Part shown: in pieces, positions 55,195 through 64,000 of the stretch
Position numbering within the stretch: position 1 is the stretch's first letter
How the letters are laid out: every line of letters starts with the position of its first letter
DNA from: Serratia nematodiphila DZ0503SBS1
Lineage (GTDB): Bacteria > Pseudomonadota > Gammaproteobacteria > Enterobacterales > Enterobacteriaceae
Length of the DNA stretch: 64,000 bases
Direction: 5' to 3'
Assembly (NCBI RefSeq): GCF_000738675.1
Contig: NZ_JPUX01000001.1
Span: forward strand, 2,728,001 to 2,792,000
Notes under the pieces: generated by a model
Told to the model about the DNA's origin: nothing
The model's database searches: none
Seen by the model: the letters and a program-made list of their open reading frames with translations, nothing else
Translations under genes and position numbers: made by a program

Positions 55195-57534
55195 TTAAGG
55201 CAGCGCAAACGCCATCACGTAATCGCCGGTTTCTGACGAATGCGCGGCGCCGCCGACCACAATAACGATGTATTGCTTGCCGGTTTTAGGCGAAACGTAG
55301 CTCATCGGCGTCGCGCTCGCGCCGACCGGCAGCGCATATTTCCAGACTTCTTTGCCGGTGCTGCTGTTATAGGCGCGCAGATAATAGTCCTGGAAGCCGG
55401 CGAAGAAGACCAGGCCGCCGGCGGTCGTCATGGTGCCCGCGTAGGTGGGCATGCCAACCGGCATCGGCAGATGCGATCTGATGCCCAGTGGCCCCATTTT
55501 TTCGGCGGTGCCGGCCGGTATCTGCCAGGCAATCTTTTTGTTTTTGTAATCGACGGCGGTGATCGTGCCGTAAGGGGGTTGGTTGCAAGGCACTTCGAGC
55601 GGCGACATCCACATCAACGTGATCATGCCGTATGGCGTGCCGATCATGGGAGAAGGCCCGTGGCCATCGATCACTTTTTGCGGGTACTGTTTCGCGACGC
55701 GTTCATAGTTGTCGCGCGCCACTAACCAAAACACATTCGGGATGCGCACATCGTTCATGTAAGCCAGATGGTTCACAGGATCAATCGACATGCTCCCCCA
55801 GTTGAGTCCGCCTAAATTGCCGGGCTGCTCGAGCGTTGGGCGGGTGCCGATCGGGGTCATGTCGCCCTGGTAATTCATCTGTTTGAACAGGATGCGGCAG
55901 GCCATCTGGTCAAACAGGGTGGTGCCCCACATTTTTTCTTCGGTCAGGCGTTCGGCGCCAATGGTCGGCATGCCGACGGAGAGCGGCTGGGTTGGCGAGA
56001 GGCGCTCTTCCTCTGCGGCGCCTTGGGTCGGCACGGCTTTCTCTTCAACCTGCGCCAGCGGTTTGCCGGTCTCCCGGTTCAGGTAGAAAATCTGCCCGCG
56101 TTTGGTGCCGAGCAAAAGGGCGGGCACCGGGCGATGTTGCTCATCAAAACCGTCCACCAGCGCGGGTTGGGATGCGAGGTCATAATCCCAAATGTCGTGA
56201 TGCGTGGTTTGGAATTTCCAGCGCTCACGGCCTGTTTCAATATCAATGGCGACCAGGGCAGAGTTGTACGCATCCGAATTTTCCGGGCGATTCATGCCGT
56301 AATAGTCGGGCGTTGCATTGCCAAGCGGCGCATACAACAAGCCTAATTTGTCGTCATAGGCGGCGGTGGTCCACATATTCGGCGTGCCGCGCGTATAGGT
56401 GCTTCCGGCAGGCGGAGCCTTGGTGATGCCCGGGTTGCCTAAGTCCCACGCCCAGTCCAACTCGCCGGTTTTGGCGTCGAACGCCCTGATGACGCCGGAG
56501 GGCTCGCCTTTCATTACGTTATCGATAACCCAGCCGCCGACGATAATCTTCCCTCTGGCGATGGTCGGCGCCGAGGTTTGGAAGTAATAACCCGGTTTGA
56601 CTTCCCCCATATGCTGGCCGAGATTCACCTCACCGTTTTGACCGAAGGCGGGGCATTTCTGGCCCGTTTTGGCATCCAGCGCAATGAGGCGGGCATCGAT
56701 CGTGGTGTGAACGATCGTTTTCTCGCACAGCGCGCCTGGCGCAATATCTTCATTTTTGTAGTAGCCAAGCCCGCGGCAGCGTTGCCAAACGGGGGAGGTG
56801 GAATGCGAGTCAAATTTCCAGCGCGCTTTACCCGTATCGGCATCGATAGCGGTGATAAGACCGTTGGGCGTACAGCTATACACCACATCATCAATCGCGA
56901 GCGGGGTGTTTTGGTCCACGCCCGGCCGGAAATCGCCGGTGCGATAAACCCAGGCGAGTTTCAGGTCTTTGACGGTTGAACGGTTCACCTGATTGAACGG
57001 CGCGTAGCGCGTTCCTTCCGTCGTGCGGCCATAGGCGCTCCAATCGGCAGGCGCATTGTCGCTTTTGCTCTCGATAAACGTCACGTCGCCAGCAGGGGTA
57101 ATTTCGCCATGGGGAAAGAAGGCGCCGATAAAGAAAGCGACAAAGGCCACGGATAATGCCGAACCGGCGATGTAAGCCTGCTTTTGACTCTTGGCGCCGT
57201 GCAGGTATGAGGGAAGTAAAAACGCGGCGATAATAGAGAGGCCGGCGGGCACCAGCAGGCGAGGGAACAATGCCCAGTAGTTAAGCCCCGATTCCCAAAG
57301 CGCCCACAACAACGTCATCAAAAACAGCAGGCCGGTTAAGTAACAAGCCGATTTGCTGCGCTTGAGGACCAGCACTGCGGCGGCGATGTAGCCTATCCCG
57401 GTAATGGCATAGTAGAACGATCCGCCGAGGGCGATCAGCCAAATTCCCCCCACGGTTAACGCGACGCCAGAAAAAACCAGCAAGCAAAAGAACGTGATTA
57501 TTGCGGCTCTCTTACCAAACGATGTTCTAATCAT
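55195..57534 (-). CDS. gcd: Membrane-bound PQQ-dependent glucose dehydrogenase family
   Basis: A 779-residue quinoprotein. Five hydrophobic segments fill residues 1-~145 (the ubiquinone-linked anchor). The remainder is the beta-propeller with the PQQ-domain signature NRSTVKDLKLAWVYRTGD, DADTGKARWKFDS, WAWDLGN, and the terminal GKQYIVIVVGGAAHSSETGDY. It oxidises glucose to gluconolactone in the periplasm. AAGGA 7 nt upstream supports the start at 57534 over the in-frame ATG at 57561. PQQ biosynthesis genes are not in the window. Close relatives oxidise quinate or shikimate, so glucose is probable rather than certain. Confidence 0.87.
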   Translation of the reverse strand: MIRTSFGKRAAIITFFCLLVFSGVALTVGGIWLIALGGSFYYAITGIGYIAAAVLVLKRSKSACYLTGLLFLMTLLWALWESGLNYWALFPRLLVPAGLSIIAAFLLPSYLHGAKSQKQAYIAGSALSVAFVAFFIGAFFPHGEITPAGDVTFIESKSDNAPADWSAYGRTTEGTRYAPFNQVNRSTVKDLKLAWVYRTGDFRPGVDQNTPLAIDDVVYSCTPNGLITAIDADTGKARWKFDSHSTSPVWQRCRGLGYYKNEDIAPGALCEKTIVHTTIDARLIALDAKTGQKCPAFGQNGEVNLGQHMGEVKPGYYFQTSAPTIARGKIIVGGWVIDNVMKGEPSGVIRAFDAKTGELDWAWDLGNPGITKAPPAGSTYTRGTPNMWTTAAYDDKLGLLYAPLGNATPDYYGMNRPENSDAYNSALVAIDIETGRERWKFQTTHHDIWDYDLASQPALVDGFDEQHRPVPALLLGTKRGQIFYLNRETGKPLAQVEEKAVPTQGAAEEERLSPTQPLSVGMPTIGAERLTEEKMWGTTLFDQMACRILFKQMNYQGDMTPIGTRPTLEQPGNLGGLNWGSMSIDPVNHLAYMNDVRIPNVFWLVARDNYERVAKQYPQKVIDGHGPSPMIGTPYGMITLMWMSPLEVPCNQPPYGTITAVDYKNKKIAWQIPAGTAEKMGPLGIRSHLPMPVGMPTYAGTMTTAGGLVFFAGFQDYYLRAYNSSTGKEVWKYALPVGASATPMSYVSPKTGKQYIVIVVGGAAHSSETGDYVMAFALP

Positions 57535-57991
57535 ATGTTTTCCTTTGACTTTTAAATCCACATTGGATCACCATCCCATCGCTGCCAACGCGTGAAAATG
57601 CAGGCGCGAAAGGCAAGGCATTTCCCGCCTTGAGACTTTTTATTCTTTAACGCTTTAGGGGCATTGAGTTGTCGTTTTGATATCCATTTCAACAGTGGCC
57701 ATTGCGGCTTGGATCCGTCGCCAGACCAAGATAAGGGTTTTTTATTGGGCGATGACAGAACGCGCGCGATAAAAATAACCATCAACATTTTTATTTAATA
57801 CCGGGTTGTAACCGTCTCGCAGAGATACGGTTGTGGGTGCGCTGGGCAATCCGATATTTTATAGCAGTGATAAGCGCATTGAATGAAAGAGCCTCTCTGG
57901 ACTAATTATTTAGAGTGATGATGAATGCGGAACTGCTTTTAATCACGAGGTTGCGTAGAGGTTTACCCTGCGTTGAGTTCAGGGTGAAACG
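57535..57991. other. Intergenic region upstream of gcd
   Basis: About 460 bp with no supported gene. A 78-codon minus frame (57552-57788) lacks a ribosome site. A hairpin with AACCGT and ACGGTT arms lies near 57809-57833 but lacks a T run. Confidence 0.4.
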
Positions 57992-58660: not shown

Positions 58661-59548
58661 TTAGCGCTCTGGCCCAGGCGCTACCTCTTTCTCTCTGTGC
58701 TTGATAGGGAAGACAATGGGGATATAGGTCTTCATCTCTATTCTATCGCCGCCTTTGGGGGTGATGATTTCAATGAGAAAGCGATCGATCATGCCAACTT
58801 TATTTATCGGGAATGATTTGGTGTAGATACTTTGCGTGAATTTTTGCGCCTCATCGCTTGCGCCGTCAAAACTGAACTCTGCAAAAAGTTGCATGTCTTT
58901 TTTTCCCTGGGCGTCGGCCAGGGAGGCAAGCACGCTGCCAAGACAGTCTTCTTCAGAAATATAGAGGGTCTTCAAATAGATGCTGACGTAATTCTCTTTC
59001 TTGATGCTCGCGCCAAAATTGAAAAAGTTAATCACGCCGCTATCCGTTTTTTTCATGTTATCAATTGCCGCCAATCGCAGCGCGGAAACCGCAGGATGGA
59101 AGTGATATATTTCTGCATCAACGCCATCCCCTGAATCGTCGAAAAACTTTGGCAGGTGCACATAGCGATGCTCGGGAATGCCGTCGAGAAACAGCAATGG
59201 GATGGCGGAGGACACGTCCCACGATTTACTTTTGCGATACTGCATCGGCGAGGTTCTGAATTGCTTGCGGAAGGCTCGTTCAAATGATTGATATGACTGA
59301 AAATTTAGCGTTTTAACGATATCGGAAATAGAGAGGTTCGTCGCTTTCAACATAAATGCGGCGCGAATGAGTTTTCTGCCCCTCACATAGCTTCCGAAAG
59401 TCATCCCTGTTTCATCTTTAAACGCTTTTTGGATATGCCCGCGTGAATATCCGCTTTTTTCTGACAGCATCTCAACGGTGAGCTTCTCATTGAACCCACT
59501 TTCTTCCACCCAGGCGAGCAGCTCCTCAATGACTTTGGTTATAAACAT
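58661..59548 (-). CDS. AraC-family regulator with N-terminal HTH (first of two)
   Basis: A 295-residue regulator in which the two AraC HTH motifs occupy residues ~10-105 (LSEKSGYSRGHIQKAFKDETG, then ISDIVKTLNFQSYQSFERAFRKQF) and the effector part follows (~120-295), the order of Rob rather than AraC. The C-terminal half begins WDVSSAIPLLFLDG and is of the GyrI/AraC-binding type by layout. It is divergent from its paralogue at 60369; 820 bp separate the two starts. Confidence 0.8.
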   Translation of the reverse strand: MFITKVIEELLAWVEESGFNEKLTVEMLSEKSGYSRGHIQKAFKDETGMTFGSYVRGRKLIRAAFMLKATNLSISDIVKTLNFQSYQSFERAFRKQFRTSPMQYRKSKSWDVSSAIPLLFLDGIPEHRYVHLPKFFDDSGDGVDAEIYHFHPAVSALRLAAIDNMKKTDSGVINFFNFGASIKKENYVSIYLKTLYISEEDCLGSVLASLADAQGKKDMQLFAEFSFDGASDEAQKFTQSIYTKSFPINKVGMIDRFLIEIITPKGGDRIEMKTYIPIVFPIKHREKEVAPGPER

Positions 59549-60368
59549 GCAGGAGCTCCCTTTTAGTTAACTGCCTAATGGTTGCGTTGGGTAAAATAAC
59601 GCGTTATCGGTATTCAGCGATAAGCCCCAATTTATCCGTTCTTTTAGGCAATATCCTGAGTATAGAACGCTTGCAATATTAACGCGGTAAATTAAAAAAA
59701 ATGTACTTAAAAGTGTCATTTACCAAATAGCCGCGTATGGCAAGAAGTCGAACGTGAAGGGGGGGCATTTTTGATTTTGTTAATTTATTGATTTTTATTG
59801 ATTTTTATTGGGGTTCCAAGGTGAAGGGAGAACGATTTTTGCTCATTGATAGATAAAAACTCTATATGGCTGTCAATTTATTGACAGTAACATCTTTTCG
59901 AATCGGAATAATTAACTATTCTATGTTTAAGAGTGGGTGGTTAAGCGGAAAATAGGCAGGCAAGGCATTGCGTAATTAAATGATGGTTAATCCAGGGGGG
60001 CGTCAAGGGTAATGATATTCAGAGAAGCGTATGTATGCTTTATTTTCACGATAAATAGCGTTTGCTATTTATCTTCTGGCTGTGGCCCGCGCTTTTTGAG
60101 GCAGAATAAACGCTGAGCGTTGTTCTGTCTTGGCGTCCGTGGTTTATCAGCGTTTTTCCACACGACTTCTTTGTGAATCTCATCTTGTGCGAGAGGTGAA
60201 TCGGCATCTTTCGCCCTGGAAATGATTTTTTTTGCAATGTGATGCGTGGATATATTTGAACGGATATGGGAATGCCATTCTTCGAAAGAAAGCAAGTCGG
60301 ACAGCTTTTGGTTCCGCAAGAAGAGAGATGCATTCAATAATAAAAATAGCAAGATGACAGGCTTTACT
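59549..60368. promoter_or_regulatory. Divergent AraC-AraC intergenic region
   Basis: An 820-bp, AT-rich region. GGTAAAT at 59686-59692 and ATTTACC at 59718-59724 form an inverted repeat with a 25-bp spacer. AAAAGTGTCATTT at 59709-59721 is nearly identical to AAAAGTGTTATTT at 61331-61343 in front of the right-most small-RNA unit. No ribosome site supports the minus-strand frames here. Confidence 0.4.
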
Positions 60369-61094
60369 ATGGATTGTTCTAACAAGTTCAGACGCAATAT
60401 TTTAGATGAGATAATCGCTATCATTGAAAAAGCCATTGATACACAAAGCCATGTATCAATAAGGGCGCTATCCATTAAGTCAGGGTATTCCATCGGGCAT
60501 TTACAGCGGATGTTCTATTTGTATGAAGGGATGAAGATAGGCACTTATATCAGAAAGCGCAGACTAAGCCGCGCGACGTTATTGCTGAAATGTACCGATC
60601 TGAAGATCTATGAAATCGCGTTGCTTTCCGGATTTAGTTCTCAGCAATCATTTAGCCGTGCGTTTTCAAATCAATTCGGTTGCCCGCCGAGAACATTCAG
60701 AACTCTGCGCGATTGGCCTTTTCTCAATTATCAACCGATTATTGGCTTCGATAAAGAGCCTTTCCCCAGCAGCATCGTGTACTTGAATTTGCATGAGTAT
60801 TACGAGAAAAAAAGGATCGTGCAACTGCTTTCGCCGATAATCAGCCGGGGGCAGATGAAGGTAAACGTAAAGAATCCAATAACCTGTAGCCTGTACAACG
60901 CATCGGCAAAGTACATTGCGATCAGACGCAATGAAAAAAAGATGAGCGAAAACGAGTTCATCCTATCGCTCTATGAGGGGGTGTTGGCTTCCCAGGATAT
61001 CTTCATCACGCAAAGCGTAATCTTTAAAATTCACGATCACTGCCCAGGTGAAAAGGAAAACGTCAGCATGTGGTATTTCATCCCGATAAAATGA
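60369..61094 (+). CDS. AraC-family regulator with N-terminal HTH (second of two)
   Basis: A 241-residue paralogue of the protein at 58661, with HTHs IKSGYSIGHLQRMFYLYEGM and IYEIALLSGFSSQQSFSRAFSNQF and then about 135 further residues. The start at 60369 is chosen from AGG spaced 7 nt upstream; in-frame ATGs at 60354 and 60246 are alternatives. The low GC of this gene and its surroundings compared with the rest of the window suggests horizontal acquisition. Confidence 0.78.
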   Translation: MDCSNKFRRNILDEIIAIIEKAIDTQSHVSIRALSIKSGYSIGHLQRMFYLYEGMKIGTYIRKRRLSRATLLLKCTDLKIYEIALLSGFSSQQSFSRAFSNQFGCPPRTFRTLRDWPFLNYQPIIGFDKEPFPSSIVYLNLHEYYEKKRIVQLLSPIISRGQMKVNVKNPITCSLYNASAKYIAIRRNEKKMSENEFILSLYEGVLASQDIFITQSVIFKIHDHCPGEKENVSMWYFIPIK

Positions 61095-61808: not shown

Positions 61809-63728
61809 CTAAGATCCCAGCGGCCAGACCGCCTCGCGCACGGCGATCGCTCTGGGTAGCAGCCCGAGGGCGTAGAAGCGGTCGGCGATGCTTTGCTGCT
61901 GGCGGATCACCTGCAAATCCATGGCGCGGATCTCGTGGCTGCGGCGCGACAGCGCGAGTTCCAGCGAGGCGCTCGCCAGCCCCAGTTCGTCGGAAAGGTG
62001 ACGAGCGGCTTCTCTCGGCTGCGCGGCAATGTAGCGGCCGGTGTGCTGCAATGCTTGCATCAGCGGCTGCAACAGATCGCCCGAGCGCTCGGCGAAGTCG
62101 CGGCGCGCCAGATAGAATTGCTGATTGAGCACTCGCTGGGTGCCGTCGGCGATCACGCGCAGTTCCCCGCTGCGCTGCGCGTCGCTGAGCAGCGGATCCC
62201 ACATCATCCAGGCGTCCACCGCCTGCAGGTCGGTCGCCGACAGCGGATACTTCGGCGGCGCGTAGACGATACGCACATCGTTCAACGTCAATCCCTGTTC
62301 GTCCAGCATCTGCAGCAATAAATAGTGCACGTTGGAGCCTTTGTTGAGCGCGATGCGTTTGCCGCGCAGATCGGCGGCGCTGTGTATCGGGCTGTCTTGC
62401 GGCACCACCATCGCCACGCTCTGCGGCGCCGGCGGCTCAAAACCGACGTACACCAGCGCATTGCCCTGTGCCTGGGCGAAGATCGGCGGCACTTCGCCGG
62501 TGGTGCCGAAGTCTATCTCATCGCCGTCGAGCGCGTGCAGCAGCTGCGGCCCGGCGGGAAACTCGCTCCACAGCACGCTGATGCGCTGTGTGGCGAAGAG
62601 CTGTTCCAGGCTTTGCCGCGCCTTGAGCACCCCGAGGTTGCCGAACTTTTGATAGCCGATGCGCAGTTCGCGTTCGGGCAGCGGCGCTGCGGCGATGGCC
62701 GGCGAATGTGCGGGTGCGCCGGCGCTGCGACGGCGCGGTTTGATCAAACCAAGATGCGCCAAATGGGTGCGCAGGGTATTGCGGCTGACGCCGAGCAACG
62801 ACGCCGCTTGCAGCTGGTTGCCGCCGCTGCGCTCGAAGGCGTTGCGCACCAGCGCATCCAGCACCCGTTGGTAAAGCTGCGCGCTGTCGCCTTGCAACTG
62901 CTGCTGCACAAAGCGATCGATGGCGTCATCGCCGCCGCCGTCGTTATCCGTCAGGCGATGGGTGAGCTGCAGTTGCTGCGGGGCGATCGCCCCCTCCTGG
63001 CTCAGCAAGACCGCATTATGCAGCGTGTTCTCCAGCTCGCGCACGTTGCCGGGCCAAGGGTAGTCCAGCAGCGTCTGCTGCGCTTCCGCCGTCAACCGCG
63101 GCAGTGGCCGTTCCAGACGGCGGGCGTACAGCGCAAGAAAATGTCTGGCCAGCACTGGAATATCGTCCGGCCGCTGGCGCAAGGGCGGTAAAGCCACCGC
63201 CGCCACGTTCAGGCGGTAATAGAGATCTTCACGGAACCGCCGTTGGCGAATCGCGCCGGCCAGATCGACGTGGGTGGCGGCGATGACCCGCACATCGATC
63301 TTCAGCGGTTTGCGCGAACCGACGCGGGTGATCTCCCGTTCCTGCAGCACGCGCAGCAGCTTGACCTGCAGCGACAGGTTCAGTTCGCCGATCTCGTCCA
63401 GAAGCAGGGTGCCGCCTTCCGCCGCTTCGAACCAGCCCTGATGAGTGCCGACGGCGCCGGTGAAGGCGCCTTTCTCATGGCCGAACAGTTCGGCTTCCGC
63501 CAGGCTTTCCGTCAGCGCGCCGCAGTTGACCGCCAGGAAAGGTTGATGGCGGCGCGCGCTGTGGTGGTGCAGATAGCGCGCCACCACTTCTTTGCCGGTG
63601 CCGGTTTCACCGACGATCAGCACGGTGGCGTCGGTGGGAGCCAGCCGATCGAGCACGCTTTGCAGAGCGAGCGACGCCGGATCGATCAGCACCGGTTTGT
63701 CGGCGGCGAACGGTTGGGGATCGTACAT
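61809..63728 (-). CDS. Sigma54-dependent activator fused to an SsuA-like binding-protein domain
   Basis: A 639-residue protein. Residues ~15-250 are an AAA+ sigma54 activator: Walker A GETGTGKE (40-47), the sigma54-contacting GAFTGA (87-92), Walker [10 protein letters not shown] (105-113) and [13 protein letters not shown] (223-235). A Fis-type HTH follows ([21 protein letters not shown], 302-322). Residues ~354-639 resemble the periplasmic sulfonate-binding protein SsuA/NMT1-like family ([60 protein letters not shown]) but no signal peptide precedes it, so it is cytoplasmic. There is no N-terminal receiver or GAF/PAS domain, so the fused domain is probably the sensor. AGGAG sets the start at 63728. 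Confidence 0.87.
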
Positions 63729-63810
63729 GGGCGTCTCCTGTCTGACGACGATGGGGAAAAAAATCTTATCCCAGCCAATGAGCCGCCGCGAGAGGATAAA
63801 AGGCGCACGG

Positions 63811-63858
63811 TGCTGCATTGGCAACAGCTTTCCGCCGCCGCCTGCTGCCAATGCAGCA
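63811..63858. promoter_or_regulatory. Perfect 13-bp inverted repeat, candidate activator-binding (UAS) site
   Basis: TGCTGCATTGGCA (63811-63823) and its exact complement TGCCAATGCAGCA (63846-63858) are separated by 22 bp. They lie 64-111 bp before the -24 element at 63922, in the usual distance range of enhancer sites for sigma54 activators. Confidence 0.6.
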
Positions 63859-63921: not shown

Positions 63922-63937
63922 TGGCACGCATCCTGCT
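63922..63937 (+). promoter_or_regulatory. Sigma54 (-24/-12) promoter for a gene beyond the right edge
   Basis: TGGCACG-CATC-CTGCT fits TGGCACG-N4-TTGCW with one mismatch; GG and GC are 12 bp apart as required. The gene it serves would start to the right of 64000. Confidence 0.65.
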
Positions 63938-64000
63938 TTTCTTTTTATAACCAAGCAAAGTTTTTCTATCGATAAATAATGAAAATAGTTATATAGGAAA

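Follow-up and report, generated by a model that had tools for sequence, protein, structure and literature searches.

An SfnR-type sigma54 activator of Serratia nematodiphila with a C-terminal SsuA-type domain, a predicted cytoplasmic sulfonate sensor

What is an SsuA-type solute-binding domain doing behind the DNA-binding domain of a sigma54 activator? The question is raised by a single gene (61809..63728, minus strand) in the window analysed here, a stretch of 64,000 nucleotides from Serratia nematodiphila DZ0503SBS1. This gene encodes an SfnR-type sigma54 activator of 639 amino acids, and a ribosome-binding-site-like AGGAG (63735..63739, minus strand) lies ahead of its ATG at 63728. The AAA+ sigma54-interaction domain with its lid (residues 21-258; 62955..63668, minus strand) contains a Walker A motif at residues 40-47 and GAFTGA at residues 87-92. 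It is followed by a Fis-type helix-turn-helix (HTH; residues 285-325; 62754..62876, minus strand), which forms three helices in the predicted model and matches the HTH_8 profile at residues 294-320 (6.2e-7, 29.5 bits against a cut-off of 22). Next comes a variable, probably disordered linker (residues 331-350; 62679..62738, minus strand), with pLDDT values below 50 and a high omega. The approximately 285 residues beyond the HTH make up a complete SsuA-type domain (residues 352-639; 61812..62675, minus strand), with Q360, G393, G411, N466 and W510 at its pocket positions. This domain scores 184 bits with the SsuA profile TIGR01728 (cut-off 163.5) over residues 355-635, and remains under the cut-off of the narrower SsuA profile PRK11553. 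There is no sensor domain ahead of the AAA+ domain, and a sequence scan of the protein found no hydrophobic segment, signal peptide or membrane segment. The protein is predicted to be cytoplasmic, which would place the SsuA-type domain behind a cytoplasmic activator.

A preliminary description of this DNA had proposed this domain order, and had suggested that the SsuA-type domain was taken up by a sigma54 activator on the far side of the HTH, with neither a signal peptide nor an N-terminal sensor. Both points are borne out. The two halves, searched separately, return AAA+ and HTH_8 for the N-terminal part and TIGR01728, over its cut-off, for the C-terminal part. In the predicted structure, the AAA+ part has low confidence and the C-terminal domain has the fold of sulfonate-binding proteins; the solved structures nearest to it, by sequence as well as fold, are sulfonate binders. 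From this anatomy it can fairly be inferred, as was also suggested earlier, that control differs from the standard N-terminal repression.

The join between the AAA+/HTH part and the SsuA-type domain is intact in 34 aligned relatives. Both halves are under purifying selection, with omega values of 0.02-0.17 for the AAA+ part and 0.04-0.14 for the SsuA part in eight pairwise comparisons, and of 0.43-1.5 for linker residues 336-352 (seven defined pairs). A decayed C-terminal domain is ruled out by the values of 0.04-0.14 in the eight pairs. Whole-length relatives exist in 12 of the 30 genus genomes, S. nematodiphila counted. At least 25 fusion loci were found in the contig scan, in Serratia, Lonsdalea, Pantoea, Raoultella, Erwinia, Rouxiella, Hafnia and others; 24 are full length and one (L039) ends at a contig edge. 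L016 and L019 were omitted as duplicates of L022 (an S. plymuthica record) and L036 (an S. liquefaciens record), and L023 was omitted from the structure alignment for an ambiguous residue. Among plasmid records, 73 match over at least 80% of the query protein. The regulator has a match in 23 of 198 genomes of the family sample, and 22 of these matches carry the SsuA domain. The fusion was found in one of 369 genomes of the class sample (S. nematodiphila itself) and in three of 398 of the phylum sample, S. nematodiphila again counted; in these two samples at most three candidates per genome were scored, so that rare distant forms can be missed. Two Alphaproteobacteria (Azospirillum and Methylocystis) also have fused forms, and E. 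coli genomes gave no DNA match to the fusion gene at 1e-30. That a sequencing or assembly error fused two genes has nothing in its favour, the one-half names in some public records being mixed naming only. With the join kept in the aligned relatives, in the 22 family-sample genomes and in two Alphaproteobacteria, we regard such an artefact as having a negligible chance.

Both halves of the protein are already known, and the arrangement is unremarked in databases, where it goes under two names. Public records (for example, NZ_CP119396.1 and NC_013856.1) call the same architecture either an aliphatic sulfonate transporter substrate-binding protein or a sigma-54-dependent regulator, and the fused architecture explains this mixture of regulator and transporter names. 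We found no description of the fusion in a literature search of partial coverage, outside which most subscription papers lie, including the SfnR originals.

By its phylogeny, the AAA+/HTH part belongs inside the SfnR family. In a tree of 26 rows, SfnR and the fused forms make one clade of 15 rows with a support of 100/99, which includes SfnR1 and SfnR2, the Pseudomonas sigma54 activators of dimethylsulfone and methanesulfonate genes; the fused clade within it has a support of 96/93. The identity of this part is 61% to the Azospirillum fused form and 56% to the Methylocystis fused form; three short SfnRs share 50-52% with it, and an NtrC-like protein encoded in the S. nematodiphila genome itself shares 44%. 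Like SfnR, the window protein has no N-terminal sensor, has msuE, msuD or sfnG as neighbours and is associated with a palindrome and a -24/-12 box (in P. aeruginosa, before msuE). Unlike it, the fusion carries a solute-binding domain, whereas the short SfnRs have 361-386 amino acids and none: at a Pfam threshold of 1e-5, both alphaproteobacterial fusions contain such a domain, and four short SfnRs of Pseudomonas and Burkholderia do not. With its extra SsuA-type domain, the window protein departs from the strict definition of SfnR, AAA+ plus HTH and nothing more; by its domain composition it is an SfnR relative with a new architecture. In P. aeruginosa, two short activators, which we take to be SfnR1 and SfnR2, lie on either side of msuE, msuD and an acyl-CoA dehydrogenase gene. 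A passage of PMC8234197 is consistent with this assignment. The short activator of B. pyrrocinia adjoins msuE-sfnG. Used as a query against 72,556 plasmid records at 1e-80, it matched 132 (Pantoea 65, Burkholderia 57, Methylocystis 3 and seven others one each). Among the 60 matches listed, those outside Burkholderia and P. aeruginosa belong to Pantoea, Klebsiella, Methylocystis and Azospirillum, which are groups where fused proteins occur; the Paraburkholderia, Variovorax and Sphingobium matches are outside these 60. L049, another candidate, was rejected as an SfnR, its neighbours looking flagellar by eye.

Where did the SsuA-type domain come from? Its fold matches that of SsuA, the periplasmic alkanesulfonate binder (2x26 of E. 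coli; 3e4r, 3ksj and 3ksx of X. citri). In contrast to SsuA, it lacks a signal peptide, is attached to an activator and has asparagine (N466) in place of the serine S141 of X. citri SsuA. In the tree of SsuA domains, a branch with a support of 97/94 separates 12 stand-alone rows from the fused rows, so a single capture of an SsuA-like domain within this SfnR clade would be the simplest history. This tree has a midpoint root, and its two alphaproteobacterial rows are long and group only weakly with each other. A move of the canonical SsuA into the regulator was rejected, since the S. nematodiphila genome keeps its separate SsuA gene (L008) and a second solute-binding protein gene (L004). We also rejected N466 as a hallmark of the fusion, because several stand-alone solute-binding proteins have the same GSN; for the same reason, the donor was probably a protein of this GSN subgroup rather than canonical SsuA. 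One genome (G863) has a stand-alone SsuA-like gene immediately behind its fusion gene, in the same orientation (L196 2442-5451), which may illustrate the kind of source from which such a domain could be drawn.

The neighbouring genes are concerned with organosulfur compounds. A divergent operon starts at 64008, just outside the window, and encodes MsuD/SsuD, an FAD/NAD-binding protein, a DmoA-type monooxygenase, MetN-, MetI- and MetQ-like proteins, an MFS transporter and an SfnB-like protein. The MsuD/SsuD protein scores 620 bits with TIGR03565 (cut-off 518). The SfnB-like protein, with 252 bits against 431, is assigned below the cut-off, and the MetNIQ-like proteins score under the methionine-transporter cut-offs. 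MsuD/SsuD adjoins the regulator in 29 of 30 loci, the exception being L029. In the family sample, MsuD (at least 76% identity) stands beside the regulator in all 22 genomes with an SsuA-bearing one, and is present in one of ten chosen genomes without a regulator match. Other genes vary: at L022 and L043, msuD alone of this gene set is beside the regulator, and at the two loci tested for it (L023 and L104), the gene between msuD and the FAD gene is sfnG. The latter occurs in 11 of 198 family-sample genomes, nine of them with a regulator match; it is absent from 14 of the 23 regulator-bearing genomes and is thus not a constant partner in this sample. It can lie away from the fusion locus, as in S. 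nematodiphila (G000:C1:783276-784319) and in the genome of L022 (G015). Two genomes of one genus, of about 4 Mb each (G674 and G921; L194 and L197), have sfnG and no fused-regulator match; in G674, sfnG is near genes that resemble, by eye, a formaldehyde-oxidation pair.

A few genomes depart from the common pattern. In G874, the regulator has 352 amino acids and ends in the linker; it is the only regulator in the family sample without the SsuA domain. This genome has a -24/-12 box, one palindrome with one mismatch and an operon beginning at the FAD gene, and contains no MsuD or SsuD at 1e-100. In G785, the msuD operon is present with no regulator and no cis elements ahead of msuD. The fusion is also present in the L029 genome, a MAG, in which no MsuD-type gene reaches 76% identity; the only SsuD-like match there, at 64%, contains a stop.

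We found a conserved set of cis elements between the regulator and the msuD operon. Two enhancer-like palindromes, TGCTGCATTGGCAACA (63811..63826) and TGCTGCCAATGCAGCA (63843..63858), lie 32 bp apart, the second of them 63 bp before a sigma54 -24/-12 box, TGGCACGCATCCTGCT (63922..63937, plus strand), which reads towards the msuD operon. The consensus TGYTGC-N4-GCARCA recurs with spacings of 31-32 bp between the palindromes and 62-64 bp to the box. A box scoring at least 9 of 12 is present 184-210 bp upstream of the regulator start in 30 of 30 loci; 7.6% of 3000 shuffled 330-nt regions reach 9 of 12 anywhere. Both palindromes, with at most two mismatches each, are found in 29 of 30 loci (not in L042) as against 8 of 3000 shuffles. 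Close behind the box lies TTATAACCAA (63945..63954, plus strand), of which TATAACYAA is kept in 30 aligned loci. Largely the same arrangement precedes the distant sfnG of S. nematodiphila, with an exact palindrome at 783054 that is itself preceded by an imperfect one, a box at 783132 and TTATAACCAA at 783155 (G000:C1:783155-783164). The genome contains nine copies of TTATAACCAA; two follow a -24/-12 box, both before organosulfur genes. With two of nine copies behind a box, we rejected it as a general sulfur element. It might serve as an additional site for a regulator, or belong to the promoter of the regulator gene itself on the opposite strand.

Single elements are not diagnostic, since the box occurs six times in the genome (three for the backwards control) and the palindrome 28 times (five for the control). 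The combination of box and TATAACYAA occupies exactly those 12 of 30 genus genomes that carry the fusion and sfnG; its backwards control has no match in the 30. All 19 matches, two each in seven genomes and one each in five, adjoin the fusion gene or sfnG. Because fusion loci supplied the pattern, independent tests come only from the sfnG copies and from the genomes without a match. Random placement would give the identical set of 12 in 30 with a chance of 1e-8, a figure that shared descent makes an overstatement. In comparisons made without a shuffled null, palindrome and box are also present at the Azospirillum and Methylocystis fusions. In the same comparisons, P. aeruginosa, B. glumae and B. 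multivorans have both ahead of msuE, B. pyrrocinia has the box only, and neither was found before msuE of R. phaseoli and A. fabrum.

What, then, could be the ligand? According to a part of PMC3839906, Q36, G68, G86 and S141 of X. citri SsuA hold the sulfonate and W185 faces the pocket. Four of these five contact positions are kept in the fused forms: every one of the 35 fused rows, the window protein among them, has Q360, G393 and G411, and all 34 rows that cover W510 keep it. The fifth, S141, is N466 in all 34 covering rows. Given this replacement, seen also in several stand-alone solute-binding proteins, the ligand may be something other than a sulfonate. The substrate of MsuD would be the likeliest common signal of the regulator, because MsuD/SsuD is adjacent in 29 of 30 loci and the other genes vary. 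That the near-constant neighbour is an MsuD/SsuD monooxygenase points to small alkanesulfonates rather than taurine. Our first guess is methanesulfonate, since MsuD converts it into sulfite (a part of PMC8234197).

We therefore favour, as probable, an SfnR-family sigma54 activator whose C-terminal SsuA-type domain detects a small alkanesulfonate in the cytoplasm, with methanesulfonate as the likeliest ligand. The activator would bind the two palindromes at 63811-63858, and its sensor domain would close on the sulfonate. The AAA+ ring would thereby assemble or be freed, reach the -24/-12 box at 63922 and open the promoter, turning on the divergent msuD operon and, at its distant site, sfnG. Desulfonation and sulfone-oxidising enzymes would then be made only when their substrate is inside the cell. 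The domain order, fold match, SfnR kinship, neighbours, cis elements and co-occurrence are the sequence-based part of this explanation; sulfonate binding, domain closure, the effect on the ring and the direction of the switch are what we infer. Transcription activation with RpoN is predicted from the conserved -24/-12 box. Our confidence is limited by the 14 of 23 regulator genomes without sfnG and by the contact serine replaced throughout. The L029 fusion without an MsuD-type gene, the short SfnRs that function without the domain, the single case of G874 and the low confidence of the AAA+ model also count against it.

The domain might instead sense sulfur sufficiency, binding sulfate, sulfite or another oxyanion and switching the activator off. 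Titles of SfnR papers cited in PMC13352529 and in the part of PMC8234197 used here place Pseudomonas SfnR genes in the sulfate-starvation response, N466 replaces the sulfonate-contacting serine, and the main-chain oxyanion contacts at G393 and G411 would suit other anions. Against this stand the MsuD gene beside every one of the 22 SsuA-bearing regulators and the sulfonate ligands of the nearest solved relatives. The joint loss of the SsuA domain and MsuD/SsuD in G874, albeit one case, also fits a substrate sensor better, and we consider the sufficiency signal unlikely.

We give a somewhat smaller chance to a domain that is no sensor at all, a leftover of the fusion that aids oligomerisation or stability, with activity set by how much of the activator is expressed, as has been suggested for short SfnR. 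G874 keeps its regulator, box and operon without the domain, and short SfnRs, which lack it by Pfam, function as activators. However, Q360, G393, G411 and W510 are invariant in the covering fused rows, and selection holds the domain as tightly as the AAA+ part, beyond the needs of an inert module. Docking to a membrane transporter whose transport state controls the activator would agree with the normal docking of solute-binding proteins to permeases and with the ABC genes at some fusion loci. Yet permeases take these proteins on the periplasmic face, the fusion is predicted to be cytoplasmic and the ABC genes next to it resemble MetNIQ rather than SsuBC, making this very improbable.

If the sulfonate-sensor reading is extended, a clamshell solute-binding protein behind the HTH would, by closing on a sulfonate, control ring assembly on two enhancers spaced by roughly three helical turns. 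Such a mechanism would add a new control mode for sigma54 activators, in which a solute-binding protein was turned from transport to direct gene sensing; it would have arisen once in the SfnR family and be present in both Gamma- and Alphaproteobacteria. We hold this wider proposal tentatively, at somewhat less than even chances. LevR-type activators also have sensory domains C-terminal to the AAA+ domain, with PTS phosphorylation as input, but their HTH is N-terminal, whereas the putative sensor of the fusion lies beyond the HTH. In cyanobacterial NrtC and CmpC, judged from titles, a solute-binding-type fold is likewise at the C-terminus of an ATPase; that domain, with 14-16% identity to the one studied here, belongs to a transporter ATPase and not to a gene activator. 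A part of PMC7057263 describes PspF and HrpR/HrpS, which, like the fusion, lack an N-terminal regulatory domain but are controlled in trans by partner proteins, while the fusion has a possible sensor in cis, at the opposite end. It also describes N-terminal control for NtrC, NorR and NifA, unlike which the fusion would, if our reading is true, receive its control from the far side of the HTH. No sensor is apparent in SfnR-type activators, and the fused form suggests that their signal is a sulfonate inside the cell; its putative sensor can be cut off, mutated or titrated. A sulfone/sulfonate regulon is thereby predicted for a set of Enterobacterales.

Elsewhere in the window, two AraC-type regulator genes, both with HTH_18, lie close together (58661-59548, minus strand; 60246-61094, plus strand), and 55195-57561 (minus strand) encodes a PQQ-type dehydrogenase of the glucose/alcohol beta-propeller kind.
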